64,000 nt of DNA, taken from contig NC_056001.1 of NCBI RefSeq assembly GCF_018446385.1, forward strand, positions 7,459,600 through 7,523,599, in the 5' to 3' direction. Shown here piece by piece: positions 6,416 to 63,432 of this stretch. A program made the position numbers and the translations under genes. The DNA is from Zingiber officinale (lineage: Eukaryota > Streptophyta > Magnoliopsida > Zingiberales > Zingiberaceae). Position 1 is the stretch's first letter; each line of letters opens with the position of its first letter. Below the pieces are notes generated by a model. That model was not told where the DNA came from. It made no database searches and saw only the letters and a program-made list of their open reading frames with translations.

Positions 6416-8277
6416 TGTTGGTTGGTCCTAGGAAGATCGTACTAGTTCCACTGTACAAAAATTTTGTACAAGTGTCGAACTTTCCCTAACAACATATTGT
6501 GTTCTTTAGAAATTAAATTAGGAATCACAAATGGAATTTAACATTATTGATTCCAAATTTAACTTATCTATTCTTAATGGTTTAGATTTGGATCGCAAGT
6601 AGAACTTAACACTATTGATCCAAATCAACCTATATTACAAATTCAATTAAATATCTATTTTGGAAATCGGTTCCCAAGACAAACATGGCGAGGCACATGA
6701 CCTTCTTGGGTATGGGAGCATCCACCACTACCTCGACAAAACCTCTTAACGAAATTAAATATTTAATTTCCTAAAATAACATTAGGTTTAACCAAAAAGA
6801 ACAATCGAATCACAAATTCGAAAAACAAAAAAAAACACAAACTCGAATCACAAATTCGAAACTCTAGAATCATATGCTTCTTGTGTTTGGAATTCATACA
6901 AAAGAAAAACTAGTATGATGCGAAAAATAATTACTAGTTATACCTTCTTTTGTATACAACGACCTCTTGATCTTCTACCGTATTCCTCTTCTTATCTCGG
7001 ACGTTGTGTGGGCAACGATCTACCGAGATGAGAACTACCCAAGCTCCTTCTTCTCCAAGCTAGATTCAACCACCACCAAGTCTCCAAGAGATGTAGAGCT
7101 TCGGCTACCACCACCAAGCTCCAAGGGACGCAAGAGCAAAGCCTCCTTTCTCTCCTTATTCTCCTAGCTAGAACCCGCCACCAACAAAAGCTCCAAGAGA
7201 AAGATGATCCGGCCACTAAAGAAGAAGAGAAGAGGAGGGAATAGGGCCGGCCACACTAAGGAAAAGAGGAAGAACTATAGAAGGGATGTTCACCCCGTGA
7301 AGGCACCTCTACCCCCTCTTTTATATTCCTTGGTCTTGGCAAATAAGGAAATTTAATTGTTATTAAAATTTCCTTATATTCCTTGCCTTTGGTTATTAAG
7401 GAAAAATTAATTAAATTTTCCTTTTAACCATGCTATGGCCGACCACACACCAATGCTCCAAATAAGGAAAGTTTTAAACACAAAATTAAAACTTCCTTAT
7501 TTGTTCTGAAAATTTTAAAATTAAAATTTCTCTAATAATTTGTCCCTTCATGGTTGGTTATAAAAGGAAATTTTATAAATTAAAATCTTTCTTTTAAACA
7601 TGTGGATGATTTCAAAAAGGAAAAGTTATCTTTGTTAGGATCCTTCGTACGGAGGCTAGAGAGGGGGGTGTGAATAGCCGACCCCAAATCGTCGCGTTTC
7701 TAAAAAATGTGTTAGCGCAGCGGAAAATAAACACAGAAACGAAAGGGAAAGAAGACAAACCTCAAACAAACCGATGTAACGAGGTTCGGAGATAAAATCC
7801 TACTCCTCGGCGTGTCCGTAAGGTGGACGAAGCCTATCAATCCGTCGGTGGATGAGTCCCCGGAGAATCGGCTAATAAATGCTCCTTGTGGGTGGAGAAA
7901 CCTCGCCACAATACTTGTAACAACAAGAAAGGAGTACAAAGAAAGCAAGAAGCAAATACAAACAACAATATGAATGCAACACTCGCTTGCCTTCTCTGTC
8001 GATCGGAGGCGATGAAGCAGCAACTTCGCAACCCAAACGCAGCAGCTGATCGACGACTGGAAGCTCACGCGAAGCTTCGGAAGCGAGCTCAACAAAGCTT
8101 AGACCCTCAGAGCACAGAAGCAAAAGCTTCAATCCAAGGAAGAAGAAGAAGGAAGAAGTTGTTGTTGCGATCACTGTAGACTCCCCTTATATCCTCTGGT
8201 ATCTCCCTGCACCCTGCGAAGAGGAAACAGAAGCAACAGACGAAGCAGAGACTAGCCGTTGTGTCACAACGGCTAGT

Positions 8278-8665
8278 GCTGGACCGATCAGGCTCCATCC
8301 TGATCGGTCCAGGAGGATCCTGATCGGTCTGTGGACCGATCAGGCAACGATCAGTGGCCTACTGATCGTTTCCTGATTGGTCTTGTGGACCGATCAGGGA
8401 TCCTCCTGATCGGTCTGTGGACCGATCAGGCTTCCTCCTGATCGGTCTGTGGGCCGATCAGGCTACGATCAGTGACCTCCTGATCGTTTCCTGATCGGTC
8501 TGTGGACCGATCAGGCCCTAGGTTGATCGGTCCCCAGACCGATCCCCAACTCCTGGATTGCCTTGATCGTTTCCTTCTGCTTCGTTACTGATCGGTCTGG
8601 TGACCGATCAGCTAATCCCAGGTCTCACTGGATCGGTCACCAGACCGATCCAGATGACCACTTAG
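8278..8665. repeat. Array of GATCGGTC...GACCGATC hairpins
   Basis: About nine perfect or near-perfect palindromes share an 8-bp core stem GATCGGTC/GACCGATC with a 4-5 base loop (TGTG, CCCA, TGG). Flanking stem bases vary in pairs: CTGATCGGTC with GACCGATCAG, and CTGGATCGGTC with GACCGATCCAG. Confidence 0.9.
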
Positions 8666-8689
8666 AGCTTCCCATCAGCCCTAAAGCCT

Positions 8690-8950
8690 CGAGAACGAGC
8701 TACCAAGCCCTTTCCGACCTTCTCATCCGGTCTAGAGAACGAGCTCCCGAGCCCTCTCTGACCTAGTCCGGAGAACGAGCTTCCGAGCCCTCTCCGACGT
8801 CTGGTCCATAGAACGAGCTACCGAGCCCTCTCTGACCTAGTCCGGAGAACGAGCTGTCGAGCCCTCTCCGACTTCCACGTCCAGTCCAGAGAACGAGCTA
8901 CCGAGCCCTCTCTGACCTAGTCCGGAGAATGAACTACCGAGCCCTCTCCG
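8690..8950. repeat. GAACGAGCT...GAGCCCTCTCCGAC tandem repeat
   Basis: About seven units of roughly 36-50 bases contain GAGAACGAGCTACCGAGCCC and CTCTCTGACC, with slight drift. The right LTR has the matching array at 13738-14002. Confidence 0.85.
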
Positions 8951-8957
8951 ACTTCGC

Positions 8958-9195
8958 ATGCCAAGCTTCCAAACTTGGACTTCTCCCGTGCCAAGTCTCC
9001 ATACTTGGACTTTTCCGTGCCAAGTCTCCATACTTGGACTTTTCACCAGATGTCTGGTCAACCTTGACCTATCTGGATTTCCCTTGCCTTGCTTCACTCA
9101 CCAGGACTTTCCAACTGCCTGGCTTCACTCACCAGGACTTCTCCGACTGCCTAACATCCCAGTTAGGACTTTTCACCAGTCAAGTATCCGGTCAA
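8958..9195. repeat. Variable-stem hairpin array
   Basis: Successive units have the form TGCC-stem-loop-stem'-GGACTTTTC. Stems seen here are CCAAG/CTTGG, CCAAGT/ACTTGG, CCAGAT/ATCTGG (with an inner GGTCAA/TTGACC stem), CCTGG/CCAGG and CCTAAC/GTTAGG. Confidence 0.85.
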
Positions 9196-9411
9196 CCTTG
9201 ACCTACTTGACTCTTCTTCATCCAACCTGATCAAACCCTGATCAGTATCTCTCCGCATGGACAACTGCACCTGCATTGTCCATGTCTACATGTCTTTCTG
9301 TTCTTGTCAAACATCGTCAAACATAACTCGTCAAACATCAAAACACAACTCGAGTCAAGTCAACTCGAGTCTGGTCAACCAGGTCAACCTTGACCTAAGG
9401 TTGCACCAACA

Positions 9412-9425
9412 ATCTCCCCCTTTTT
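9412..9425 (-). promoter_or_regulatory. Polypurine tract of the first gag-only element
   Basis: Read on the minus strand, AAAAAGGGGGAGAT abuts the LTR start TGTTGGTGCA, as expected for plus-strand priming in plant Copia elements. Confidence 0.85.
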
Positions 9426-9845
9426 GATGTTTGACAAAATCCATAAACAAGTTAGATTAAACTAACTTAGGTTTTCCAAAACATTCTCCCATTCTCCCCC
9501 TTGGGACATCTCTCCCCCTTTTTGACACACATCAAAATGAGGGAATTAAGGTCAAGAGTTGCTTCCCAATGAAAGTCCCATACCTTTCATTGAAACACTT
9601 AATTTCCCCCTTGATACTAAACTCAACACTCAACTTAGTGACAATTCCATATCACTAATCCTCAAAAGTCTTAAGGAGTAAAAACTCCCCCCTTGACTAA
9701 TAGGTAAAACTCCCCCTAAAGGTCAACTCCCCCTTGACCATTGCACCAACAATGTCTTGGAGAGTTTCAATCCTTTAGATATCTGAAACTCAACTCCCAT
9801 AAACTGAAATTTCAGACACCTGCTGAAAATCAGAAATTCGGCACG

Positions 9846-9977
9846 CACTGATCGGTCCCCAGACCAATCAGAAACCCCTTGGATCGATTCCCAAATCGAT
9901 CCTCGCTTTCTGGATCGTCACTGATCGGTCACCAGACCGATCAGGACTTCTCTGGATCGGTCCGGTGACCGATCCAG
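9846..9977. repeat. GATCGGTC-type hairpins in the internal region
   Basis: Five or so palindromes of the LTR type also occur just inside the element, including a variant core GGATCGATT/AATCGATCC. The second element has the equivalent at 47008-47150. Confidence 0.8.
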
Positions 9978-11172
9978 CCTCTGAAATCATAGATTTCTGA
10001 TTTTTCTCCCCGGGAGAAATTCAGAAACTCACAGAAAATTACAGAAAATTCCAAAAATCGTAAAATTTTGAGGATACATTCCTCATACCATATACTATCA
10101 TGGAAAAATAATTTCAGATGAAAATAACTTCCATTTTCAAATCTTGATACAAAGTTCAAAAGACTTTGAAATAGTTCAAAGTTAAGTAAACTTTGTATCA
10201 CAATGTTCAATGATAAATGCTATCACTAGAATGGCTTCATCAAGGTTTTTCAAATCAATTTTGAAATGATTTTTAACCCTTTAATTTAGGACCATAATCT
10301 TAGGACTATATGTACATGACTTGTACACAAGTTTTTCCTATGATCCTCCTTCTTGAATTAGTCTCATCTAGGTACAAGAACTATGCACCTTGATCCTAAC
10401 TCATGATCCTAATATCTCACACACATCTAAAGTGTATCAAACACATCCAAGTCAATTTTGATGTGAGATATGAGTTTAGGTTATCTTAGGCTAAGTTCTC
10501 ATGCATTTTCTAAACACCAATTTGATCTCAATATCAAATTATGTTTTTATCCTTAAATCAATTTCATTGATTATTAATGCAAGAGATGATGACATGGCAT
10601 GAAATAATATCATAAATAGAAGCATGTGCCAATGTCATGATGTTATGACATAAAGTTTGAAACTTAAATAAACATGACATAAATCTAACCTAAGCATTAT
10701 CATGACATTTCAAAAGATAAACTTAAATATGATGTCATGACATGTGAGGGCAAACAATCATGGCAAGATTTAGCATGAATAAGACATACCTAGATTACCT
10801 ATCTAAGTATCCTTAGCCTTAGCTAATACTTAAGCTTTAACCCTTGATTGCCCTAATATGCCAAAATCCTAATTTTGACACTTCTTGAACTCTAGATTCA
10901 TTCATGCCACTTAAAGATCAAATTTATCCTCAAATCTTGGCATGTTTCATTTTCTTCAAGAGTTCTCTAGATTTTCCCAAATTGTGCCAATTGAAATTAA
11001 CATCATCACTTTCCATGATGGCATATTTTACTCTTCCAAGGAGTAAATATTAATGATTGTTCCATTTCATTTTCAAAGGTTCCCAAAAACCTTGAAAATG
11101 CTCCTTGAGTGTCAATTTCCTCAAAGTTGGGTTAACTACCCTTCTAATCGGAGTTGACACTCTCTAACCCAT

Positions 11173-12648
11173 CTATGGGGTAGAGAAGATGCTCCTAGGT
11201 ACCCAATACCTATTTGAGCTCATTGGGTTCACTAAATATTCACTAGGGATAACTTCCCTAGCAACCCTCCTAATGACCCTCTTAGGCTTTAAAGCCTTGG
11301 TCATTTGGGACTCATCAAGATCAACTCTAGGGGTGACTCCCCTTGTGACCTTGGTGGTGGTCTTCCTAGCCCTAGATTTTCTTCCATAATCGAATGGAAC
11401 ATTATGATAAGTGGGCTTGACCACTTGGGACTTAGGTTTGTGACCCAAACCTCTCTTGTCCTTTGACTTGGGTTTTTGACCCTTAGACCCTAGAGTTGAC
11501 TTTTCTAAGTTCTTAAGAGCCTTTTCCAAAGTATCAAGTCTTGACCTCAAGACTTGATTCTCCTTCTCTAATACCTCAAGTTTTAATTTATCATTATTCC
11601 TTGAGGTATTTCTAGGCATATGTCTAGATGATTTGGGATTTCTACCTAGGTTCTCCTTAACCTTAGATGAGTTAATCCTAGTGTTATCATTTCTAGCATT
11701 GTCCTTACCTAGACTAACATGCTTGGCACCTAAGCACATATATCGATTCCTAAGATTATCATGCTTATCATTCTTGACAATTGCAATAAAACTACTAGCA
11801 TGAGTCTTATTATTATTGCAAGAATGTGCCTTAAATGTTACCTTAGGGTTTGCCTTAGCTCCCCCTATCGACGTGCTCGGTCTCTTGTCCTTGTGAGATT
11901 GCCTCCCCCTCGGACATTGACTCCGATAATGTCCCCTTCGCTTGCATTGGAAGCACACCACGTGTTCCTTGCCCTTGCGTGTCGGGACTCCGGCTTCCTT
12001 GACCTTTGGCGCCGGTGGAGTCTTTCTAATCCTCTTTGGACATTTGCTCTTGTAGTGCCCAAATTCCCTACACTCAAAGCACATTATATGCAATTTATTT
12101 GAACTTAAATTGCTTGAGTTACCTAGGGTTGAGGATGGATGAATGCTCTCTTCTTCATCCCTTCCGGAGGTAGAAGCTTCTTCCTCTTGCTCCATTCTTG
12201 AAGAAGAACTCTCCTCCTCTTCTTCCTTAGATGTTGAGTAACCCTCAACTTCTAATTCCTCTCCTCCATGATGTGAGCTGCTTGGCTCACTTGACTCCTC
12301 TTCATGGCTTGAAGTGGAGTTTCCCTCATGGAACTTTGCCAAGTTGTTCCACAACTCCTTGGCATTGTTGTATCCTCCTATCTTACACAATATATCATTA
12401 GGTAAAGAAAATTCAATGATTTTCGTTACCTCATCATTGATGGTTGATTGGTGGATTTGCTCCTTGGTCCACTCCTTCTTCTCTAGGGTTTCTCCTTTCT
12501 TGTCCATCGGAGACTTGAAGCCTAATTGAACACAACTCCAATTTTCAAGATTAGTCATAAGAAAATACCTCATTCTTACCTTCCAATACGCGAAGTCGCA
12601 GCACTCGTAGAATGGTGGAAACGTGATGTCTTCTCCGAGTCGATCCAT
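11173..12648 (-). CDS. Copia Gag protein (retroelement)
   Basis: An uninterrupted 491-codon frame encodes a Copia-type Gag. Residues 1-110 resemble the plant retrotransposon Gag N-domain (FAYWKVRMRYFL, then NNAKELWNNLAKFHE). An acidic serine/glutamate-rich linker spans about 115-170. Two CCHC zinc knuckles follow, CFECREFGHYKSKC near 190 and CFQCKRRGHYRSQC near 232. A basic region, a heptad-like coiled coil (LEVLEKENQVLRSRLDTLEK, about 360-390) and a conserved basic tail ending RYWVPRSIFSTP complete it. Gag packages the element RNA into virus-like particles in the cytoplasm. The start codon lies about 50 bases beyond the PBS. No protease or pol domain follows before the stop. Confidence 0.9.
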   Translation of the reverse strand: MDRLGEDITFPPFYECCDFAYWKVRMRYFLMTNLENWSCVQLGFKSPMDKKGETLEKKEWTKEQIHQSTINDEVTKIIEFSLPNDILCKIGGYNNAKELWNNLAKFHEGNSTSSHEEESSEPSSSHHGGEELEVEGYSTSKEEEEESSSSRMEQEEEASTSGRDEEESIHPSSTLGNSSNLSSNKLHIMCFECREFGHYKSKCPKRIRKTPPAPKVKEAGVPTRKGKEHVVCFQCKRRGHYRSQCPRGRQSHKDKRPSTSIGGAKANPKVTFKAHSCNNNKTHASSFIAIVKNDKHDNLRNRYMCLGAKHVSLGKDNARNDNTRINSSKVKENLGRNPKSSRHMPRNTSRNNDKLKLEVLEKENQVLRSRLDTLEKALKNLEKSTLGSKGQKPKSKDKRGLGHKPKSQVVKPTYHNVPFDYGRKSRARKTTTKVTRGVTPRVDLDESQMTKALKPKRVIRRVAREVIPSEYLVNPMSSNRYWVPRSIFSTP

Positions 12649-12696
12649 TCTCTAGCTTGTGCTCCTCCGGATGTTAATCCGATGAAGAGCAACCTC

Positions 12697-12708
12697 GCTC
12701 TGATACCA
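12697..12708 (-). promoter_or_regulatory. Primer binding site (initiator-Met tRNA)
   Basis: The minus strand reads TGGTATCAGAGC two bases inside the 5' LTR, complementary to the 3' end of plant initiator-Met tRNA. Confidence 0.9.
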
Positions 12709-12710
12709 CT

Positions 12711-14574
12711 TGTTAGGATCCTTCGTACGGAGGCTAGAGAGGGGGGTGTGAATAGCCGACCCCAAATCGTCGCGTTTCTACAAAACGTGTTAGCGCAGCG
12801 GAAAATAAACACAGAAACGAAAGGGAAAGAAGACAAACCTCAAACAAACCGATGTAACGAGGTTCGGAGATAAACTCCTACTCCTCGGCGTGTCCGTAAG
12901 GTGGACGAAGTCTATCAATCCGTCGGTGGATGAGTTCCCGGAGAACCGGCTAATAAATGTTCCTTGTGGGTGGAGAAACCTCGCCACAATACTTGTAACA
13001 ACAAGAAAGGAGTACAAGGAAAGCAAGAAGCAAATACAAACAACAATATGAATGCAACACTCGCTTGCCTTCTCTGTCGATCGGAGGCGATGAAGCAGCA
13101 ACTTCACAACCCAAACGCAGCAGCTGATTGATGACTGGAAGCTCACGCGAAGCTTCGGAAGCGAGCTCAACAAAGCTCAGAACCTCAGAGCACAGAAGCA
13201 AAAGCTTCAATCCAAGGAAGAAGAAGAAGGAAGAAGTTGTTGTTGCGATCACTGTAGACTCCCCTTATATCCTCTGGTATCTCCCTGCACCCTGCGAAGA
13301 GGAAACAGAAGCAACAGACGAAGCAGAGACTAGCCGTTGTGTCACAACGGCTAGTGCTGGACCGATCAGGCTCCATCCTGATCGGTCCAGGAGGATCCTG
13401 ATCGGTCTGTGGACCGATCAGGCAACGATCAGTGGCCTACTGATCGTTTCCTGATCGGTCTTGTGGACCGATCAGGGATCCTCCTGATCGGTCTGTGGAC
13501 CGATCAGGCTTCCTCCTGATCGGTCTGTGGGCCGATCAGGCTACAATCAGTGACCTCCTGATCGTTTCCTGATCGGTCTGTGGACCGATCCCCAACTCCC
13601 GGATTGCCTTGATCGTTTCCTTCTGCTTCGTTACTGATCGGTCCGGTGACCGATCAGCTAATCCCAGGTCTCACTGGATCGGTCACCAGACCGATCCAGA
13701 TGACCACTTAGAGCTTCCCATCAGCCCTAAAGCCTCGAGAACGAGCTACCAAGCCCTCTCCGACCTTCTCATCCGGTCTAGAGAATGAGCTCCCGAGCCC
13801 TCTCTGACCTAGTCCGGAGAACGAGCTTCCGAGCCCTCTCCGACGTCTGGTCCAGAGAACGAGCTACCGAGCCCTCTCTGACCTAGTCCGGAGAACGAGC
13901 TGCCGAGCCCTCTCCGACTTCCACGTCCGGTCCAGAGAACGAGCTACCGAGCCCTCTCTGACCTAGTCCGGAGAACGAGCTACCGAGCCCTCTCCGACTT
14001 CGCATGCCAAGCTTCCAAACTTGGACTTCTCCCGTGCCAAGTCTCCATACTTGGACTTTTCCGTGCCAAGTCTCCATACTTGGACTTTTCTCGTGCCAAG
14101 TCTCCATACTTGGACTTTTCACCAGATGTCTGGTCAACCTTGACCTATCTGGATTTCCCTTGCCTGGCTTCACTCACCAGGACTTTCCAACTGCCTGGCT
14201 TCACTCACCAGGACTTTCCCTTGTCTGGCTTCACTCACCAGGACTTTCCTTTCACCTAGCTTCACTCACTAGGATTTTCACCTGGCTTCACTCACCAGGA
14301 CTTCTCCGACTGCCTAACATCCCAGTTAGGACTTTTCACCAGTCAAGTATCCGGTCAACCTTGACCTACTTGACTCTTCTTCATCCAACCTAATCAAACC
14401 CTGATCAGTATCTCTCCGCATGGACAACTGCACCTGCATTGTCCATGTCTACATGTCTTTCTGTTCTTGTCAAACATCGTCAAACATAACTCGTCAAACA
14501 TCAAAACACAACTCGAGTCAAGTCAACTCGAGTCTGGTCAACCAGGTCAACCTTGACCTAAGGTTGCACCAACA
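12711..14574 (-). repeat. 5' LTR of the first gag-only element (1864 bp)
   Basis: This is the partner of 7633-9411. It carries the same three arrays (13356-13702, 13738-14002, 14004-14346), with more units in the last. Confidence 0.9.
14004..14346. repeat. Variable-stem hairpin array, expanded copy
   Basis: It has the same unit plan as 8958-9195 but more copies: an extra CCAAGT/ACTTGG unit and five CTTCACTCA-loop units against two in the partner LTR. One of the five has the stem CCTAG/CTAGG in place of CCTGG/CCAGG. Confidence 0.85.
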
Positions 14575-37841: not shown

Positions 37842-39365
37842 AGGGCTACTTTTATATTACAAAATTCGACTTTTTTTAAAAAAAAAAAACAAAACAAAAA
37901 ACAGCGACGTTTCTTTATTTACTTAAAAAAACACCCTGATTTAAAACTATAAAAACGAGTACACAAAATAATACCTTTTAAATCCTACGCTATTTTTCAA
38001 TGCATACCTCAAACTCAAGTTGCCCTAATATGGAAAATGTTAGGCCCAGACTGAGCTTTATATAAAAAATATCAGGTCCAATTTGAATCTGATATTGGAC
38101 CATATCAGGTCCAAAATAGACTTGATATGTGAAAATATCAAGCGCACCATGGATCTGATATGTGATCATATCAGGCCTAACGATTGATCTGGATCTGATA
38201 TGTGATCATATCAGGCCTAACGATTGATCTGATATGAGAATATATCAAACCATTTTAAATCTTGGATAGAGGGGATCAGACCCGGCTCAAGGCATAGGCC
38301 TTAATGGCCTATGCCTAGGGCCCCCAAAAAATTAAGGCTCATTATTAGTTAAAAATAAATAAATATATTTAATATCTAATATTTGCATTTAAAAGATATA
38401 CTGTGAAGTCCTAAACTGCATTATGCACGCATGCATACATATTTTGCTTTAATTTGACTTGATTCGATTTCCGTTCTAGTGACATATTTTGCTTTAATTT
38501 GACTTGCTTCAATTTCTATTCTAGTGCTCTCTATATTTTGCTTTAGATTTTGCATTGATTCCAATGCAACGATTTAACTTGATTTTATTTTATTTCAATT
38601 TTCACTGTGCTCTTCAATTAATTTCAATGACAGTTATATTTAATTACATATTAATTATAATTATTATATTCTCTAATCCTAAAGTTATAATATAACTATA
38701 TAAGATCTTACATCTAATTTCTTTTCTTTAGTCTCATTTTATAATTAATTGAATATCTACTAATTCTCTCATTAATGTTCTATGTATTTTTTCCTCTTTC
38801 ATCATTGGTTCTCTAAGAAGACATCCTTCTCCTATTATACTCGGTAATATTCTTTTTACTCTTTTTTAAAAAAATTATGGAAGAAATGGACTATGAACCC
38901 AAATCTAAATTATTAGCGATTGTATCATAATTTTTTTATATATTTGTGCCGATAATAGTCAAATTTTGAAATATCATCAAATTAAAATTACACGACATGA
39001 ATTTTTAAATCTAATTTATTTTTTTAAAAAAATCGTCGTTATCGATTCCAAGTCCGAATAAAAAAGAATAAAGAAAATTTTAATTTTTTTAAAAACATTA
39101 TTAAAGATTTTTTTTTTGCCTAGGGCCTCGTGGAACCTTGAGATGGCCTTGAGGGGATGCATTGGAAAATGGAGAGAGAGAGGATTTAGAAGGTTGACGG
39201 GAGAGGTAAAAAGGGAATAACACTATTTTGTGGCTTTTTTTATAGTTTTAAAATTAGGATGCTCTTTTAGGTAAATAAAGAAACGTGATTGTCGTTTTGA
39301 TAAAAAATCATACCAAATTTGCCGGATGTTTTTCTATTTTTTACAAAAAGTCCAATTAAATTCCA
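37842..39365. mobile_element. Non-autonomous element with long terminal inverted repeats
   Basis: The left arm (CGTTTCTTTATTTAC, TTTAAAACTATAAAAA, ACAAAATAATA at 37909-37975) is repeated inverted at the right (GTAAATAAAGAAACG at 39271-39285 and beyond). Weaker pairing extends outward to about 37842 and 39365. The interior holds CTGATAT/ATATCAGG palindromes, then an AT-rich insert bounded by GGCCTATGCCTAGGGCC (about 38310) and GCCTAGGGCC (about 39119), probably a second element. No transposase is seen and I could not find a target duplication. Confidence 0.65.
38060..38255. repeat. CTGATAT...ATATCAGG palindrome cluster
   Basis: It alternates forms of CTGATATGTG and ATCATATCAGGCC. A 40-bp block (GATCTGATATGTGATC, ATATCAGGCCTAACGATT) is repeated exactly in tandem near 38151-38230. 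Confidence 0.8.
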
Positions 39366-44620: not shown

Positions 44621-45209
44621 GTGGATGTTAGGATCTCTTCGTACGGCTAGAGAGGGGGGTGTGAATAGCCGACCCCAATCGATCGCGTTTCTTCCTACGA
44701 TTAGGTTAGCGCAGCGGAAATACAAAGTAGAAAGAAAACAGGAGAAGAAAGACAAACCATATAACGAGGTTCGGAGATGAACTCCTACTCCTCGGCGTGT
44801 CCGTAAGGTGGACGAAGCCTACCAATCCGTCGGTGGATGAGTCCCCGGAAACCCGGCTAATAGATACTCCTTGTGGGTGGAGAAACCTCACCACATTCTT
44901 TGCAACAGCAATAGGAGTACAAATAGGAACAAGAAAACAAGAACAGAAATGTAAACAACACTTGCTTGCCTTCTTGAAGTCAGCAGGAACCCTGGTGAAG
45001 CAGCAGCTTCTCGGATCCAAGCCTAGCTAGAAAACCAGCAACAGGAAGAAGCTCACGCGAAGCTTTAGCACCCAACGAGCTCAACAAAGCTCAGCAAGAA
45101 GAAGAAGCAGAAGCTTCAGGCAGAAGAGAAGAAGAAGAAGCAGTAGAATCACCTTTACCGCAAAGAAGAAACAGCGAAGAAACTAGTCGTTGCGTCGCAA
45201 CGGCTAGAA

Positions 45210-45535
45210 CCCTGATCGGTCTGCAGACCGATCAGCCTAGGCGCGTGAAGCTTCTGTTTGTCACCTGATCGGTCCCCAGACCGATCAGGTGTCGCGATCG
45301 AAGCCCTGATCGGTCCCCAGACCGATCAGGCCCTGCGCTGATCGGTCCCCAGACCGATCAGGCCACAGCTGGATCGGTCCACAGACCGATCCCAACTCGC
45401 TCTTCCTTCCGCGACATCGTCTCCTGATCGGTCGCCACGGCCGATCAGGGAAGCTCCTGATCGGTCCACAGACCGATCAGATACCGATCAGTAGCACACT
45501 GATCGGTTACTGATCGGTCACCAGACCGATCAGAT
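45210..45535. repeat. Array of GATCGGTC...GACCGATC hairpins
   Basis: About eight hairpins with the core stem GATCGGTC/GACCGATC, mostly CTGATCGGTC-CCCA-GACCGATCAG, plus CTGGATCGGTC forms and a GCCACGGCC-loop variant. Confidence 0.9.
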
Positions 45536-45540
45536 AACTA

Positions 45541-46160
45541 GTGACTTGGTTTTTGCCCAAACCAAGTCCCAAGCCTTCCAAACCAACATTCGGTCAACCT
45601 CGACATGTTGGTACTTCATTCCTAGCATCTGGTCACTCCCTTGACCTGCTAGAATTTCCCGCCAAGTGTCCGGTCAATTCCTTTGACCTACTTGGACTTT
45701 CCAACACCAGAAGTCCGATTATCCCTGATCCATCTGGATTTTCCCTTGCCTGGCTTCACTCACCAGGACTTTCACCTGGCTTCACTCACCAGGATTTCCA
45801 CACTGCCTAACATCCCAGTTAGGACTTTCTCACTGCCTGGCTTCACTCACCAGGACTTTCCACACTGCCTAACATCCCAGTTAGGACTTTCCACTGCCTG
45901 GCTTCACTCACCAGGACTTTCCACACTGCCTAACATCCCAGTTAGGACTTTCCCAGTGCCAAGTCTCCATACTTGGACTTTTCCAGTGCCAAGTCTCCAT
46001 ACTTGGACTTTTCGCGTGCCAAGCTCCCTGCTTGGACTTTTCCGTGCCAAGTCTCCATACTTGGACTTTTCCAGTGCCAAGCTCCCTGCTTGGACTTTTC
46101 CGTGCCAAGTCTCCATACTTGGACTTTTCCAGTGCCAAGCTCCCTGCTTGGACTTTTCCC
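45541..46160. repeat. Variable-stem hairpin array
   Basis: About 17 units. Stems in order include CTTGGTTT/AAACCAAG, CCAACAT/ATGTTGG, CTAGCA/TGCTAG, CCAAGT/ACTTGG (inner GGTCAA/TTGACC), CCAGA/TCTGG, CCTGG/CCAGG, CCTAAC/GTTAGG, CCAAGT/ACTTGG and CCAAGC/GCTTGG. Most end GGACTTT. Confidence 0.9.
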
Positions 46161-46408
46161 GAATCAGGTCAACCAGGTCAACCTTGACCTACGGTTGCAC
46201 CAATAATCTCCCAAACATCTATTCTTGTCCCACATCAAGAATAGAACTCTCTCACGAGTGTCAAACATCAACATGCAACACAACTAGGTCAACCTTGACC
46301 TAAGGTTGCACCGACAATCTTCCCAGGTCAAACATCAAAATACAACTCGAGTCACGTCAACTCGAGTCGGGTCAACCAGGTCAACCTTGACCTAAGGTTG
46401 CACCAACA

Positions 46409-48270
46409 ATCTCCCCCTTTTTGATGTTTGACAAAACCATAATCAAGTTAGGTTACCAATGTTCTTCCTTGAACATTCTTTCCAAACTCCAATATTCTCC
46501 CTTGAACGTTTCTCCCCCAAACTTAGGTTAACCCGATAACCTAACTTGGGTTCCCCAATAATTCTCCCCCTTTTTGACACACATCAAAAAGAATTCCAAT
46601 GTTCTTCCTTGAACATTCCTTGACATTCTCCCCCTAGCTTAGGTTAACCCGATAACCTAGCTTGGGTTCCCCAATAATTCTCCAATGACTACTCTCCCCT
46701 TTTTGACACACATCAAAAAGAAAAAGGAGGGTATCAAGGTCAAGAGTTTCTTCCTAATGAAAGTCTCATACCTTTCATTTGAAACTCTTAATTTCCCCCT
46801 TGATACTAAACTCAACAATCAACTTAGTGATAATCTCATATCACTAATCCTTAAAAGTCTTTTGGAGTAAAAATTCCCCCTAAAAGTCAACTCCCCCTTG
46901 ACCATTGCACCAACAATGTCTTGGAGAGTTTCAAACCTTTAAAAAATCCACAAAACCCAATTTTCAGCTGAAATTTCAGACCAACAGCTGAAAATCAGAA
47001 ACTGGCACGCACTGATCGGTCCCCAGACCGATCAGAATCCCCCTGGATCGGTCCCCAGACCGATCCACGCTTCACTGATCGCACTGGATCGTCACTGATC
47101 GGTCACCAGACCGATCAGAACTTCCCTGGATCGGTCCGGTGACCGATCCATACTCTGAAATCAGAGATTTCTGATTTCCCTTCCCGGAAATTCAGAAACT
47201 CCTAATAAATTCCAGAAAATTCCAAAAATCGTAAAATTTTGAGGATACACTCCTCATACCATATACTATCACGGAAAAATAATTTTCTATGAAACTAACT
47301 TCCATTTTTCAATCTTGATACAAAGTTCAAAAACTTTGAAATAGTTCAAGTTTAACTCAACTTTGTATCACAATGTTCAATGATGAATGCTATCACTAGG
47401 AAAGCTTCATCAAGGTTTTTCAAATCAATTTTAAAATGCTTTTAAAACCATTTGAATTTAGGACCATAATCTTAGGGCTAAATGTACATGACTTGTACAC
47501 AAGCTTTCCCTATGATCCTCCATTTCTTGAATTAGGCTCATCTAGGTACAAGAACTATGCACCTTGATCCTAACTCATGATCCTAATATCTCACACACAT
47601 CTAAGGTGTATCAAACCACATCCATGTCAATTTTGATGTGAGATATGGGTTTAGGTATCTTAGACTAAGGTCTCATGCATTTTCTAAACACAACTTTGAT
47701 CTCAATATCAAAATGTGTTTTTCATCCTTAAATCAATTCAATTGATTATTAATGCAAGAGATGATGACATGACATAAAATGGTATCATAAATGAAAACAT
47801 GTGCCAATGTCATGATGTCATGGCATAAAGTATGAAACTTAACTAGAGCATGACATATAATAACCTAAGCATTATCATGACATTTCAAATGATCATAAAT
47901 TAAATATGATGTCATGACATGGCATATGGCAAACAACCATGATAAGTTAACACAAATAAAATACCTAAATTCCCTATCTAAGTATCCTTAGCCTTAGCTA
48001 ACTTATAATCTAACCCTAGATTGCCCATATATCCCTTAGAGAAAACCAAAATCCCAATTATGGTATTTCTCTAGGTTTTCTTAAATTGTGCCAAATAAGA
48101 TTGAAATCGATATTTTTCAAATATGGCACAATTTACTCTTTTAAGGAGTAACTAGTAATTCTATTTCATTTTCAAAGGTTAACAAAACCTTGAAAATGCT
48201 CCTTGAGTGTCAATTTCCTCAAAGTTGGGTTAACTACCCTTCTTATTGGAGTTGACACTCTCTAACCCAT
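46409..48270. other. Non-coding 3' internal region of the second gag-only element
   Basis: It starts with the polypurine tract. Several GATCGGTC hairpins occur at 47008-47150. No pol frame is present. It aligns with 9412-11172 of the first element. Confidence 0.75.
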
Positions 48271-49746
48271 CTATGGGGTAGAGAAGATGCTCCTAGGAAC
48301 CCAATACCTATTAGAGCTCATTGGGTTCACTAAATATTCACTAGGGATAACTTCCCTAGCAACCCTCCTAATGACCCTCTTAGGCTTTGAAGCCTTGGTC
48401 ATTTGGGTCTCATCAAGGTCAACTATAGGGGTGACTCCCCTTGTAACCTTGGTAATGGTCTTCCTAGCCCTAGGTTTTGTTCCATAATCGAATGGAACAT
48501 TGTGATAAGTGGGCTTGACCATTTGGGACTTAGGTTTGTGACCCAAACCCTTTTTGTCCTTGGACATTGGTTTTTGACCCTTAAACCCTAGAGATGACTT
48601 CTCCATGTTTTTAAGAGCCTTTTCTAAATTATCAAGTCTTGACCTCAAGACTTGATTCTCCTTCTCTAGTACCTCAATTTTTGATTTGTCATTTTTCTTT
48701 GAGGCATTCCTAGGCATGTGTCTAGTTGATTTGGGATTCCTACCTAGGTTCTCCTTAACCTTAGATGAGGTAATTCTAGGGTTGGCTTTCCTAGTGTTAT
48801 CCTTATCTAGGCTCACATGTTTGGCACCTAAGCATGTGTATCGATTTCTAATGTTATCATGCTTATCATTATTGACTAGTGCAATAAAATTTCTAGCATG
48901 CATCTTACTAGTATTGCACGAATGAGACTTAAATGATACCTTAGGGTTTGCCTTAGCTCCCCCTATAGAAGTGCTCGGTCTCTTGCCCTTGTGAGGTTGC
49001 CTCCCCCTCGGACAATGACTCCGATAATGTCCCCTTCGCTTGCATTGGAAGCATACCACGTGCTCCTTGCCTTTGCGTGTCGGGACTCCGGCTCCCTTGA
49101 CTTTTGGTGCCGGTGGAGTCTTCCTAACCCTCCTTGGACACTTACTCTTGTAGTGCCCATGTTTCCTACACTCAAAACACATTATGTGTAATTTGCTTGA
49201 AATCACAGTGTTTGAGTTACCTAGGGTTGTGGATGGAGATGAGCTTTCTTCTTCAACCCTTCCGGAGGTGGAAACTTCTTCTTCTTGCTCCGAACTTGAG
49301 CAAGAGGAACTCTCCTCCTCTTCTTCCTTGGATGTTGAGTAGCCCTCAACTCCCAATTTGCTCCCTCCATGATGTGAGCTACTTGGCTCACTAGGCTCCT
49401 CTTCATGGCTTGAAGTGAAGCTCTCCTCATGGTACTTGGCCAAGTTATCCCACAATTCCTTGGCATTGTTGTATTTACCTATCTTACACAAAATATTAGT
49501 AGGTAATGAAAATTCAATTGTTTTAGTTACCTCATTGTTGATCGTGGATTGGTGGACTTGTTCCTTCGTCCACTTGTTCTTCTCTAGAGGCTCTCCTTCT
49601 TTATCCATTGGAGGAGAAAACCCTTCTTGTACACAAAACCAGTTCAACATATTAGTCCTAAGAAAATACATCATCCTTACCTTCCAATATGTGAAGTTGT
49701 CGTTGTAGAATGGTGGAATCGTGATGTCTTCTCCGAATTGATCCAT
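48271..49746 (-). CDS. Copia Gag protein (retroelement)
   Basis: An open 491-codon frame, starting MDQFGEDITIPPFYNDNFTY (first ATG; six further codons upstream lack an ATG). It has the same domains as the first Gag: N-domain, acidic serine-rich linker, CFECRKHGHYKSKC and CFQCKRRGHYRSHC zinc knuckles, coiled coil (VLEKENQVLRSRLDNLEKAL) and the same tail RYWVPRSIFSTP. The two proteins differ most in the acidic linker and least in the knuckles and tail. It packages element RNA. No pol follows. Confidence 0.9.
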   Translation of the reverse strand: MDQFGEDITIPPFYNDNFTYWKVRMMYFLRTNMLNWFCVQEGFSPPMDKEGEPLEKNKWTKEQVHQSTINNEVTKTIEFSLPTNILCKIGKYNNAKELWDNLAKYHEESFTSSHEEEPSEPSSSHHGGSKLGVEGYSTSKEEEEESSSCSSSEQEEEVSTSGRVEEESSSPSTTLGNSNTVISSKLHIMCFECRKHGHYKSKCPRRVRKTPPAPKVKGAGVPTRKGKEHVVCFQCKRRGHYRSHCPRGRQPHKGKRPSTSIGGAKANPKVSFKSHSCNTSKMHARNFIALVNNDKHDNIRNRYTCLGAKHVSLDKDNTRKANPRITSSKVKENLGRNPKSTRHMPRNASKKNDKSKIEVLEKENQVLRSRLDNLEKALKNMEKSSLGFKGQKPMSKDKKGLGHKPKSQMVKPTYHNVPFDYGTKPRARKTITKVTRGVTPIVDLDETQMTKASKPKRVIRRVAREVIPSEYLVNPMSSNRYWVPRSIFSTP

Positions 49747-49792
49747 CTCTAGCTTTGCTCCCACGGGTGTTGATCCGATGAAGAGCGGCCTC

Positions 49793-49804
49793 GCTCTGAT
49801 ACCA
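49793..49804 (-). promoter_or_regulatory. Primer binding site (initiator-Met tRNA)
   Basis: The minus strand reads TGGTATCAGAGC beside the 5' LTR. Confidence 0.9.
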
Positions 49805-49806
49805 CT

Positions 49807-51583
49807 TGTTGGGATCTCTTCGTACGGCTAGAGAGGGGGGTGTGAATAGCCGACCCCAATCGATCGCGTTTCTTCCTACGATTAGGTTAGCGCAGCGGAA
49901 ATACAAAGTAGAAAGAAAACAGGAGAAGAAAGACAAACCATATAACGAGGTTCGGAGATGAACTCCTACTCCTCGGCGTGTCCGTAAGGTGGACGAAGCC
50001 TACCAATCCGTCGGTGGATGAGTCCCCGGAAACCCGGCTAATAGATACTCCTTGTGGGTGGAGAAACCTCACCACATTCTTTGCAACAGCAATAGGAGTA
50101 CAAATAGGAACAAGAAAACAAGAACAGAAATGTAAACAACACTTGCTTGCCTTCTTGAAGTCAGCGGGAAGCAGAAGCTTCTCGGATCCAAGCCTAGCTA
50201 GAAAACCAACAACAGGAAGAAGCTCACACGAAGCTTTAGCACCCAACGAGCTCAACAAAGCTCAAGAAGAAGAAGAAGCGAAGCTTGAGCGAAGAGTACT
50301 TCCGAAGGAAGAAGAAGAAGCCCAGAGAATCCCTCACCTTTATACCGCAAAGAAGAAGCAATGAAGAAACTAGCCGTTGCGTCACAACTGCTCGATCGGT
50401 CCGCAGACCGATCGCCTAAGCGCGTGAAGCTTGTTTGTCACCGATCGGTCCCGCACCGATCAGGTGTTGCGATCAAGCCCGATCGGTCCCCCGATCGGTC
50501 GACGAGACATTCATGCGTACTACGATCGATGCGGACCGATCAAAGACCGGATCGGTCCACAGACCGATCCCAACTCGCTTCCTTCCGCGACATCGTCTCC
50601 TGATCGGTCGCCACGACCGATCAGGGAAGCTCCTGATCGGTCCACAGACCGATCAGATACCGATCAGTAGCACACTGATCGGTTACTGATCGGTCACCAG
50701 ACCGATCAGATAACTAGTGACTTGGTTTTTGCCCAAACCAAGTCCCAAGCCTTCCAAACCAACATTCGGTCAACCTCGACATGTTGGTACTTCATTCCTA
50801 GCATCTGGTCACTCCCTTGACCTGCTAGAATTTCCCGCCAAGTGTCCGGTCAATTCCTTTGACCTACTTGGACTTTCCAACACCAGAAGTCCGATCATCC
50901 CTGATCCATCTGGATTTTCCCTTGCCTGGCTTCACTCACCAGGACTTTCACCTGGCTTCACTCACCAGGATTTCCACACTGCCTAACATCCCAGTTAGGA
51001 CTTTCTCACTGCCTGGCTTCACTCACCAGGACTTTCCACACTGCCTAACATCCCAGTTAGGACTTTCCACTGCCTGGCTTCACTTACCAGGACTTTCCAA
51101 CTGCCTAACATCCCAGTTAGGACTTTCCCAGTGCCAAGTCTCCATACTTGGACTTTTCCAGTGCCAAGTCTTCATACTTGGACTTTTCGCGTGCCAAGCT
51201 CCCTGCTTGGACTTTTCCGTGCCAAGTCTCCATACTTGGACTTTTCCAGTGCCAAGCTCCCTGCTTGGACTTTTCCGTGCCAAGTCTCCATACTTGGACT
51301 TTTCCAGTGCCAAGCTCCCTGCTTGGACTTTTCCCGAATCAGGTCAACCAGGTCAACCTTGACCTACGGTTGCACCAATAATCTCCCAAACATCTATTCT
51401 TGTCCCACATCAAGAATAGAACTCTCTCACGAGTGTCAAACATCAACATGCAACACAACTAGGTCAACATTGACCTAAGGTTGCACCGACAATCTTCCCA
51501 GGTCAAACATCAAAATACAACTCGAGTCACGTCAACTCGAGTCGGGTCAACCAGGTCAACCTTGACCTAAGGTTGCACCAACA
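49807..51583 (-). repeat. 5' LTR of the second gag-only element (1777 bp)
   Basis: The partner of 44626-46408. Its variable-stem hairpin array is at 50717-51335. Its GATCGGTC array (50390-50710) has an irregular stretch near 50390-50560 compared with the partner. Confidence 0.9.
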
Positions 51584-51588
51584 GTGGA

Positions 51589-51822: not shown

Positions 51823-52731
51823 TGATGCGGGGATGATAAGGGGCCCCCGCCCCCGCTGCCACGGTGGAGGTCAATGGGTTGACGGTGTCAATCGGTCGGC
51901 GAATCATACTTCGACCAAGGATTAAGCACCAACCCACCGACACAAGGAATAATCAAACTAATGCTCAAGGGACACACAGAAGTCGAGCCGAACGGTTCCT
52001 CCACTTGGCCTAGCAGTAGATTCGACATCAGCCGAACACGCGGACAGTGAACTGCCCGCCGAGCGGTTATCCCGCTCGGCCAAGCAATAGAGCATGTGGA
52101 CAGTGGGCTTTCGACCGAGCGGCCATCCCGCTCGGCCCAGCAACGGACGACAATTGGACAAGTGGACTTTCAGTTGAGCGGCTATCTCGCTCGGTGTGAC
52201 AGCAGATAGCGCAGGGATAGCAGAATTTCAACCGGGCGGTCATTCCGCTCGGCCAAGCAACAAACACAACATGATATCTTTGGACATCCTTTTGAGAGCT
52301 AGGGCCGCTAACAGACAGCATGGTCAGACAGAAGATCGTATGACAGAAGCTTCCACTATCACTTCAGATATATGCTTGACCCGTTAAGGTACTGTATCAG
52401 GGATACTTTACTGACACGTCTTTTCATGAAAAATTTTGAGATGCATGCTCACCTTGGGAAGCGTGTATGCGCACTTCCGAAACTCTATATAAAGGGGGTC
52501 CAAGAATCGGTGGAGGTATGCTTTACAAGCGATTTCCACTGTTGTGCTATAGTTCTTGCTTCTTCTTGCTTCGCCGGAGACTAACTTGAGCGTCGGAGGG
52601 CCATTGCCGGGAACCCCTTCCTTGGCTCGGTGCTAACGTGACTTGTGTTGTAGGCGGGAGCGAAGTCCACCGGAGGTCCGCAGGAGCGTCACTTCCCCAG
52701 CATCCATCTCTTTGACTTTCGGATAGGATCA
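51823..52731 (+). mobile_element. Ty3/gypsy solo LTR
   Basis: It starts TGATGCGGGGATGATAAGG and has several CCGAGCGG/CCGCTCGG palindromic phrases (52050-52260). A TATA box (CTCTATATAAAGG near 52484) and the family leader (GAGCGTCGGAGGG) follow, and it ends GGATCA. No internal region follows on either side in the right orientation. Confidence 0.7.
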
Positions 52732-62111: not shown

Positions 62112-63432
62112 ATTAACCAAAAGGCGTATGCTACTTTAATATTTATCAAAGGGCACATTTAATTTTGTACTTTTCCTGTTTTATCCTTCTTGCCAAATAT
62201 GATTTTCTATTTTCTTTCCTCTCTCCTATCCATGCAATCTCTCTTCTCTCTCTTTTTTGCATTTCTCTTTCCTCTCTCTCTTTTTTTTGCATGCATGCGT
62301 AAATACCAGACCCACGTTGGGTCTGATATGATTATATATCAGGCCCAACGTGGACCTGATATGGATATATATCAAGCCCATGTTGACGTAATATATAATC
62401 ATATTAGGCCCAACATGGTCTGATATATATTCATATCAAGCCCGCATTGGGCCTGATATGAATCATATTAGACCCACATTGGGCCTGATATATATCCACA
62501 TCACACCCAATGTGGGTCCACGTTGGGGTTTAGAACCGATTCTTCCTTTTTACATTTTAACATCTCTAAAGAAGTCAACATTAGCAATAGATGACACCAT
62601 TGGACTCCTTGCAGTCTTAAAAATATACAGGACCTAAAATGGATCCAAACGGACATGTCTAGGTCCATCAGTGAATTTTGGTCAAAATCCATTGATAGAA
62701 CTAGACATATCCGATTGGACCCATTTAAGGTCCTATGGATTTCTAAGATTGTAAGGAGTCCAGCGGTGTCGCCCATTGCTTATTTTGACTTTTCCGAGGT
62801 GTTAAAATGTAATTGGGAGAATCGGCTCAAAACCTTAGCATGGGCCTGATATGAATCTTATCGCGTTGGGCCTGATATGATTTTATATCAAGCACAACGT
62901 GGGTCTAACATGGGTTAAAATTCATTGATGGACCTAGACATGTCTGATTGGACTCATTTCAAGTCTTGTGGATTTTTAAGATAGCAAGAAGTTCAACGAT
63001 GTCATCCATTGATTATTTCAGCTTATCCGGAGGTGTTAAAATATAATAAGGAAGAATCGGTTATAAACTCAATGTGGGTTCACGTTGAACCTGATATGAT
63101 TCATATCAAGCCCACACTGGCCTGATATGTATTAGGTCCATATTGGGTCTGATATAGAATCGTATCAGGCACAATGTAGGTCTGATATATATCCATATCA
63201 GGCTCACATTAGGTCTGATATTTATACATGCATGCATGCAAAAAGAGAGAGAGGAGAGGAAAGAGAAATGCAAAAAGAGGGAAGAAAGACAGAGCGGAGA
63301 GGAAAGAGAAAAAAAGGCAGCATGGCTAGGAGAGGAAAGAAAATCAATTTGGCAAGAAGGGTAAAATGGGAAGAGTACAAAATTAAATGTGCCCTTTAGT
63401 AAATATTAATGTAGCATGCACTTTTGGTTAAT
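62112..63432. mobile_element. 1.3-kb foldback element in deaminase intron
   Basis: About 190-base terminal inverted repeats (62112-62300 and 63226-63432) begin ATTAACCAAAAG and include GGGCACATTTAATTTTGTAC and CT-rich/GA-rich arms. The interior (62300-63225) is a series of CTGATAT/ATATCAGGCCCA palindromes plus a nested inverted repeat (62550-62660 against 62700-62820, third copy 62930-63055). There is no transposase frame and no clear target duplication. Confidence 0.8.

Follow-up and report, generated by a model that had tools for sequence, protein, structure and literature searches.

The LTRs of a gag-only retrotransposon of ginger (Zingiber officinale) carry about 18 hairpin units, which have seven stem sequences on one plan, and the two arms of some of these stems have changed together. 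This was found in a window of 64,000 nucleotides at C16:7459600-7523599, by which we mean the whole stretch of DNA that was analysed. Based on our results, the array is probably the palindrome-rich U3 cis-region of a Sirevirus-like element, in which symmetry is kept during transposition and decays after insertion. Paired substitution was found at four or five orthologous pairs, in two unit types genome-wide and in two outer pairs of a second array. The initial annotation had read the array as hairpins kept for their paired shape, or rewritten from one arm to the other; this interpretation is partly supported, with a signal that comes from the four or five orthologous pairs.

Two gag-only elements and their Sirevirus-like features

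The window holds two gag-only elements of like build (Table 1), the internal parts of which are 85-86% alike. Element A is flanked by a perfect 5-bp target duplication, GTGGA, at 44621-44625 and 51584-51588. Its minus-strand ORFs in 46417-48270 are all of at most 53 aa, so that no pol was found by the criterion of ORF size, nor was one found by ORF size in element B. The gag ORF is open in both elements, with a weak bZIP-like match near its C-terminus (E 0.04-0.07). A first Pfam search of gag at the default cut-off gave no match; a zinc knuckle is above the cut-off in the gag of element B only, and the Copia gag model PF14223 matches element B only, below the cut-off (E = 0.013). As evidence of Copia, gag is weak in both elements. 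The ginger element carrying the array is a defective retrotransposon and is very abundant.

Table 1. Features of elements A and B in the window (strand left empty where none applies).
Feature	Position	Strand	Remark
Element A, gag-only LTR retrotransposon	44626..51583	-	self-BLAST, sequence, junctions
3' LTR of element A	44626..46408	-	94.6% identical to 49807-51583; TG...CA ends
5' LTR of element A	49807..51583	-	self-BLAST, junctions
gag ORF of element A, 497 aa	48271..49764	-	two zinc-knuckle-like motifs
PPT of element A, AGGGGGAG	46411..46418	-	then AT and the LTR's TG
Primer binding site of element A, TATCAGAGC	49793..49801	-	linker AGTGG to LTR end
Presumed TATA box of A's 5' LTR, TATAAA	50339..50344	-	~0.4 kb downstream of array in element sense
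Hairpin-unit array, 3' LTR of A	45541..46160		248-867 bp inside LTR from PPT side
Hairpin-unit array, 5' LTR of A	50717..51335		99% identical copy of 3' LTR array
Unit N1, ACCAACAT...ATGTTGGT	45582..45612		CCAAT...ATTGG in related LTRs
Unit N2, CTAGCA...TGCTAG with nested GGTCA/TGACC	45622..45652		sequence
Unit N3, CCAAGT...ACTTGG with nested GGTCAA/TTGACC	45662..45695		sequence
Unit N5, CCAGA...TCTGG	45707..45737		nested GATTA/TGATC; relatives GATCA/TGATC or GGTCA/TGACC
Fourteen short units	45749..46151		loops CTTCACTCA, ATCCCA, CTCCAT, TCCCT
Second palindrome array, GATCGGTC...GACCGATC, between units and TATA box	45200..45536		CGG-CCG signature (PMC2829016)
Element B, second gag-only relative, built like A	7633..14574	-	gag 11173-12648

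Since no pol is available for placement in a tree, we file the two elements by their non-coding features, as Sirevirus-like (Copia), non-autonomous retrotransposons. Passages of Bousios et al. (2010; PMC2829016) give as Sirevirus traits a PPT with AT/TG, an inverted repeat that borders the PPT and has an arm in the 3' LTR, a poly-C integrase signal, a clustering of several PPTs close to the 3' LTR, a 5' LTR/PBS junction composed of CA, ATTGG or AGTGG, and TATCAGAGC, and a TATA box near mid-LTR. In elements A and B alike, we found the PPT AGGGGGAG followed by AT and the TG of the LTR, and a CA-AGTGG-TATCAGAGC junction at the 5' LTR. The PPT sequence has five internal copies besides the terminal one in element A, three of the internal copies lying within 0.5 kb of the 3' LTR, and seven copies including the terminal one in element B, five of them within that distance. 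Read from the letters, GTCAAACATCAAAA adjoins the PPT of element A, with a second arm inverted within the LTR. Near the LTR 3' end, the poly-C stretch CACCCCCCTC is present in 4/4 LTRs of A and B. The TATAAA of element A lies about 1.24 kb into the 1.78-kb 5' LTR, and ATATAAG was seen in element B; the remaining three LTRs of A and B have no match to TATA[AT]A.

The repeated motifs of Sireviruses are described as palindromic, in the upper half of the LTR and upstream of the TATA box, with most copies starting 200-400 bp inside the LTR; published motifs with a CGG-CCG signature include CGGTCTGACCG in Osr10 and CGGTCAGACCG in Osr8 (PMC2829016). The ginger elements resemble this description in their palindromic repeats upstream of the TATA box and in their PPT, attachment and PBS motifs. 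The CGG-CCG palindromes are matched by the second array, which carries CGGTC...GACCG as do Osr10 and Osr8; in contrast, the units of the main array are mostly without this signature. Further differences from PMC2829016 are the at least seven stem types in one LTR, some of them nested, the arms matched in change, and the gag-only host. In the passages of that paper on repeated motifs, we found no description of matched change within one array. The palindromes of maize Sireviruses are small-RNA hotspots (Bousios et al., 2016, via PMC10760457 and PMC5311732), and the ginger array is like them, as far as these two sources describe them, in being a palindrome-rich cis-region with clustered motifs and strong predicted secondary structure. 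The word stem "compensat" is absent from the main text of PMC10760457, and search listings and passages yielded no published account of matched arm change within one array. A palindrome array in U3 is thus an already known Sirevirus trait, which the initial annotation had not named, and the matched arm change is a new, testable detail.

Organisation of the hairpin units

Lying within U3, the array has its start about 250 bp from the LTR edge, and some 0.4 kb separates it from the presumed TATA box downstream. In each LTR of element A, the unit finder returned 17 perfect units (45582-46151 and 50758-51326) and missed the CTAGCA/TGCTAG unit (N2 in the 3' LTR) because of its tail. The initial annotation had counted 8-20 units per LTR, which agrees with element A; in element B, whose LTRs have 6 and 10 perfect units (8959-9176 and 14005-14339) despite being 92-98% alike by segment, it fits one LTR only. 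All seven stems that it listed are present (CCAAGT, CCAAGC, CCTGG, CCTAAC, CCAGA, CTAGCA and CCAACAT). The plan TGCC...GGACTTT is the commonest frame but not a general one, many units starting with CACC and many ending in GGATTT, GGACTTC or GGTCTT, and the nested GGTCAA/TTGACC stem described as constant also exists as GATCA/TGATC and AGTCA/TGACT, with both sides changed.

In the large units, a flanking stem encloses a nested GGTCA/TGACC-like stem, and the short units fall into five classes with the stems CCTGG, CCTAG, CCTAAC, CCAAGT and CCAAGC (1,124 instances in 97 stretches). To our reading, the short CCAAGT-CTCCAT-ACTTGG and CCTAAC-ATCCCA-GTTAGG units appear to resemble N3 and N2 minus the nested hairpin. 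The longest run of perfect units has a median of 10 and a range of 1-22, and reaches at least 8 in 89/135 stretches, the array being possibly truncated in some of them. The array itself is real and beyond chance: a flanking stem of at least 5 bp was found in 339 of the 482 nested cores (95 stretches), as compared to a mean of 87 and a maximum of 103 when the right arms were shuffled (50 shuffles). Furthermore, the comparison with shuffled sequence proposed in the initial annotation came out in favour of folding, the 620-base stretch folding better than 20/20 shuffles in each of three folds (z of -6.3 for the minus-strand sense RNA, -10.0 for the plus-strand RNA and -9.4 for the plus-strand DNA). 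An Rfam search at E up to 1 gave nine matches, none of which came near the gathering scores.

Sister LTRs are identical at insertion. Among 27 gaps of 16-149 bases between sister LTRs (L034/L037, which were compared for contexts, being left out), 7 measure 26-31 bases, 13 measure 47-65, one measures 87 and 6 are of other sizes. Because these sizes are mostly unit-like, most changes in array length are by whole units.

Some further observations concern the surroundings of the array. Its promoter-side end is closed by a longer hairpin, GACTTGGTTT...AAACCAAGTC, at 45543-45568 and 50719-50744. The LTR of element B has an extra repeat, GAGAACGAGCTACCGAGCCCTCTCCGAC, at 8691-8952 and 13737-13998, which is able to form a GGAGA/TCTCC stem and was not seen in the LTR of element A. 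Other tandem repeats of the window, at 176-1024, 38066-38247, 52059-52262, 62311-62503 and 63142-63221, also look hairpin-built, with wholly different sequences, and short perfect hairpins number 1,107 in the window, as compared to 230-281 in each of four Markov controls; the repeats of the ginger genome may often contain hairpin arrays. Finally, three unit hits lie on one strand of contig C1, 5.8 kb apart (17180060, 17185881 and 17191696), and are perhaps an LTR-internal-LTR-internal-LTR recombination product.

Matched changes in the stems

The sample comprised 135 distinct stretches, after 5 overlapping loci of 140 were dropped. An exact pattern on contig C1, requiring an intact N3- or N4-like unit, gave 86 of them, and the other 49 are nearest copies; because of this requirement, N3 was left out in parallel runs. 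Identical rows were counted once. Before the unguided test and the first stem-aimed tests, 5/75 blocks were dropped; in the larger set, 7/113 rows were dropped for gaps, which left 106, and another 28 with extra gaps were dropped as probably error-prone, which left 78 cleaner rows.

The covariation test proposed in the initial annotation did not bear it out: a home-made, R-scape-like version, unguided and run on 56 unique rows over all column pairs of N1-N3, found none that reached significance (E = 6.5 for the best stem pair), and subfamily structure made many unrelated columns covary. In the stem-aimed test, substitutions were re-placed at random on the tree for 48 stem pairs. Stem pairs showing two Watson-Crick types were no more numerous than under the null (4 vs 3.1, P 0.37), and the cells in the second Watson-Crick type numbered 59 vs 22-24 (P 0.02-0.03). 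Double changes on one branch were above the tree null in 6/6 versions run: 9 vs 1.1 on the first tree, 7 vs 1.5 with 106 rows, 6 vs 1.2 with these rows without N3, and 13 vs 1.3 on a tree from unpaired columns (0/200 simulations each), then 5 vs 1.38 with the 78 cleaner rows (3/500) and 4 vs 1.07 with these without N3 (9/500). Stems were picked as paired in the reference row, which raises the paired fraction and affects the double-change count less. The N1 outer, N1 inner, N2 outer and N5 inner stems each have one pair with two Watson-Crick types, and in the larger set so does the N3 outer stem; all five pairs differ by a double transition. Within the classes of short units, matched changes number 16, several of which are misalignments, vs an expectation of 4.2.

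Genome-wide counts, which are of copies of exact forms in a 3.09-Gb genome of 211 contigs and not of events, point in the same direction. For the CTTCACTCA unit there are 102,854 G-C, 53,808 A-T, 3,999 G/T and 6,952 A/C forms, so that 93.5% are paired vs 54.3% under independent arms; for unit N1 there are 8,992 C-G, 3,334 T-A, 172 T/G and 704 C/A forms, so that 93.4% are paired vs 59.1%. Mixed forms make up 6.5-6.6% of the exact forms counted. In the second array, the outer two pairs beyond the fixed core are Watson-Crick in 82/101 and 72/101 unique contexts (on average 40.7 and 47.6, and at most 55 and 61, in 1000 shuffles) and show three and two common Watson-Crick types, respectively; pairs 3-5 are at chance in the same contexts. 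The claim that the arms change together while loop and frame stay is supported, above chance, both by the stem-aimed test and by the genome-wide counts.

Probable maintenance and decay of the palindromes

A change on an internal branch has passed through transposition, and a terminal branch includes many changes that postdate insertion. Changes that break a pair are rarer on the internal (inherited) than on the terminal (private) branches, and most strongly so in the cleaner copies. Relative to changes in unpaired columns, they number 30:73 internal vs 77:90 terminal on the first tree (P 0.007), 59:109 vs 106:122 with 106 rows (P 0.024; without N3 55:105 vs 91:112, P 0.052) and 28:80 vs 85:84 with the 78 cleaner rows (OR 0.35, P 6e-5; without N3 24:78 vs 74:75, P 4e-5), counts in which few events can look like several through LTR recombination. 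The contrast on the tree from unpaired columns (P 7e-6) was given no weight, as a tree built in this way drives changes in stems towards the terminal branches. In the full set, the contrast lies only in C-to-T/G-to-A changes (P 0.020, without N3 0.013; other changes P 0.48, without N3 0.67), so decay of methylated cytosines could contribute; in the cleaner set, it is found in these changes (P 0.004, without N3 0.002) and in the rest (P 0.020, without N3 0.019).

A post-insertion baseline comes from sister LTRs, paired by spacing and strand (L026/L027, 9.6 kb apart, may not be one element). In the nested units of 22 such pairs, there are 59 stem changes and 63 others, and no double change. As compared to this baseline, internal-branch stem breaks are weakly depleted (P 0.03, without N3 0.06), and all stem changes together are not (P 0.16, without N3 0.22). 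Over whole arrays, 25 LTR pairs have 73 stem changes in 3,846 columns vs 232 in 10,227 others, and 4 of the 73 are double (two matched pairs), coming from two LTR pairs with error-prone members. Since rewriting during host replication should produce double changes between sister LTRs and none occur in the nested units, ongoing rewriting of one arm from the other in host DNA, one form of the template switching raised by the initial annotation, is disfavoured.

Entire units have been added or removed through slippage or recombination, as shown by the mostly unit-sized length differences between sister LTRs. We propose that the dyad symmetry of each unit is kept while the lineage transposes and decays after insertion, a step that we regard as supported, so that stems change mainly by paired substitutions, as shown for the orthologous pairs, unit types and outer pairs named above. 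The symmetry may be kept because the palindromes serve as a regulatory region, as has been proposed for Sireviruses, and the molecule that needs it could be double-stranded DNA, folded RNA or single-stranded cDNA.

It is also conceivable, if unlikely, that a few old types were simply copied whole and conserved as protein-binding sequences, with pairing unselected. As compared to spacers, stems are depleted in changes (outer OR 0.30, inner OR 0.35), and they could not be separated from the unpaired bases within hairpins (OR 0.60, P 0.16 and OR 0.70, P 0.44), so that sequence constraint could explain much. The unpaired hairpin bases are protected nearly like the stems. The loop CTTCACTCA is exact in 535/650 units found allowing at most one change, and in the short units the stems vary slightly more than the loops (0.031 and 0.028 vs 0.022). 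Protection thus applies to the hairpin unit as a whole, and it is the double changes and the counts that speak for pairing itself. Such a founder effect would also sit well with tandem duplication and LTR recombination, which would spread few hairpin types, with double changes that are few and recur at the same pairs, and with the negative unguided covariation and unexceptional number of two-type pairs. It is less easily squared with CCTGG and CCTAG stems that share several flanking contexts (e.g. 118:30 and 58:43), though the context before TCTT has nearly all CCTAG, with the outer two pairs of the second array, which take three and two Watson-Crick types while the next pairs are at chance, and with the excess of double changes per branch over the tree null in six versions.

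Mutation rather than selection could restore palindromy if fold-back template switching in reverse transcription copied one arm from the other, which we hold to be unlikely. Template switching is a one-step route to paired hairpin changes (Monttinen and Loytynoja, 2022; PMC8794818), shown in the passages of that paper for RNA genes and DNA replication, and it might likewise give rise to the paired changes of the ginger array. Such copying would suit the small share of mixed forms genome-wide, and the double changes, which favour internal branches (6 to 59 breaks vs 1 to 106 on terminal branches, P 0.012). However, the double transitions at all five two-type pairs are also predicted by stepwise compensation, and in neither of the two trees checked does any branch bear two double pairs, the power for multi-base arm rewriting being low. 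Mixed forms are also inherited: among the first 100 listed places of each form, a partner of the same state lies at LTR distance in 10, 28, 14 and 14.

It is very improbable that selection acts on pairing within the sense RNA in the service of packaging, dimerisation, stability or processing of the 3' end, even though U3 is transcribed near the RNA 3' end. With the TATA box downstream of it, the array is unlikely to act in the 5' leader of the RNA, and the packaging or dimerisation suggested by the initial annotation is therefore unlikely too; this argument assumes that transcription starts after the TATA box. Furthermore, folding stands out more clearly for the plus strand than for the sense RNA (z -10.0 vs -6.3). 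A strand test on wobble intermediates, which under selection on the sense RNA would be inherited more readily if they keep a G-U pair there, gave contradictory results across N1, the CTTCACTCA units and the tree. Mixed N1 units that would keep G-U in the sense RNA have a same-state partner at LTR distance in 28 vs 10 of the first 100 listed places (P 0.002), several of the 28 possibly coming from one subfamily, whereas the CTTCACTCA units show no difference (14 vs 14 of the first 100 listed) and A-C to G-T changes on the tree are 20:14 on internal and 45:28 on terminal branches (P 0.83). The genome-wide excess of mixed forms that are G-U in sense RNA (704 vs 172 for N1, 6,952 vs 3,999 for CTTCACTCA) was set aside as strand evidence since, at least for N1, it is confounded by the CHG context of one arm, as read from the letters.

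The assembly analysed is most probably the haplotype-resolved, 3.1-Gb one described in PMC8342452 (Nanopore with Illumina polishing). Short deletions number 0 to 24 per compared LTR pair, copies differing greatly, and in some copies they cluster at CAG/CTG and C runs in hairpins (50400-50560; L065, L071, L076, L109, L127 and others); such clusters probably reflect Nanopore errors at methylated positions, and the dating of repeats in this assembly may suffer from them too. Variants such as the matched CCCGG/CCGGG were set aside as probable errors of this kind. That errors at methylated CAG/CTG in both arms fake the matched changes in general deserves next to no credence, since the main variants are of another kind and number thousands and the internal/terminal contrast strengthens when extra-gap rows are dropped, despite the Nanopore basis of the assembly (PMC8342452), the 56/232 short deletions between sister LTRs that fall at CWG (24% vs a 6.4% background) and matched variants, e.g. 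CCCGG/CCGGG, in copies rich in such deletions.

In conclusion, matched arm changes make it testable how Sirevirus palindromes, for which links to regulation and to targeting by small RNAs have been drawn, are kept. In the CTTCACTCA loop class alone, exact counts give about 157,000 paired units with two stem types and about 11,000 forms changed on one side, so that selection, fold-back copying and founder effects would be separable with modest data. The case also shows the extent to which subfamily structure can mimic covariation in repeats. Finally, it is conceivable but quite unlikely that Sirevirus palindromes are self-repairing, fold-back by the reverse transcriptase at each hairpin and copying of one arm from the other keeping palindromy with any stem while new stems keep arising; if this were true, the cis-region would stay palindromic while its sequence moves on.
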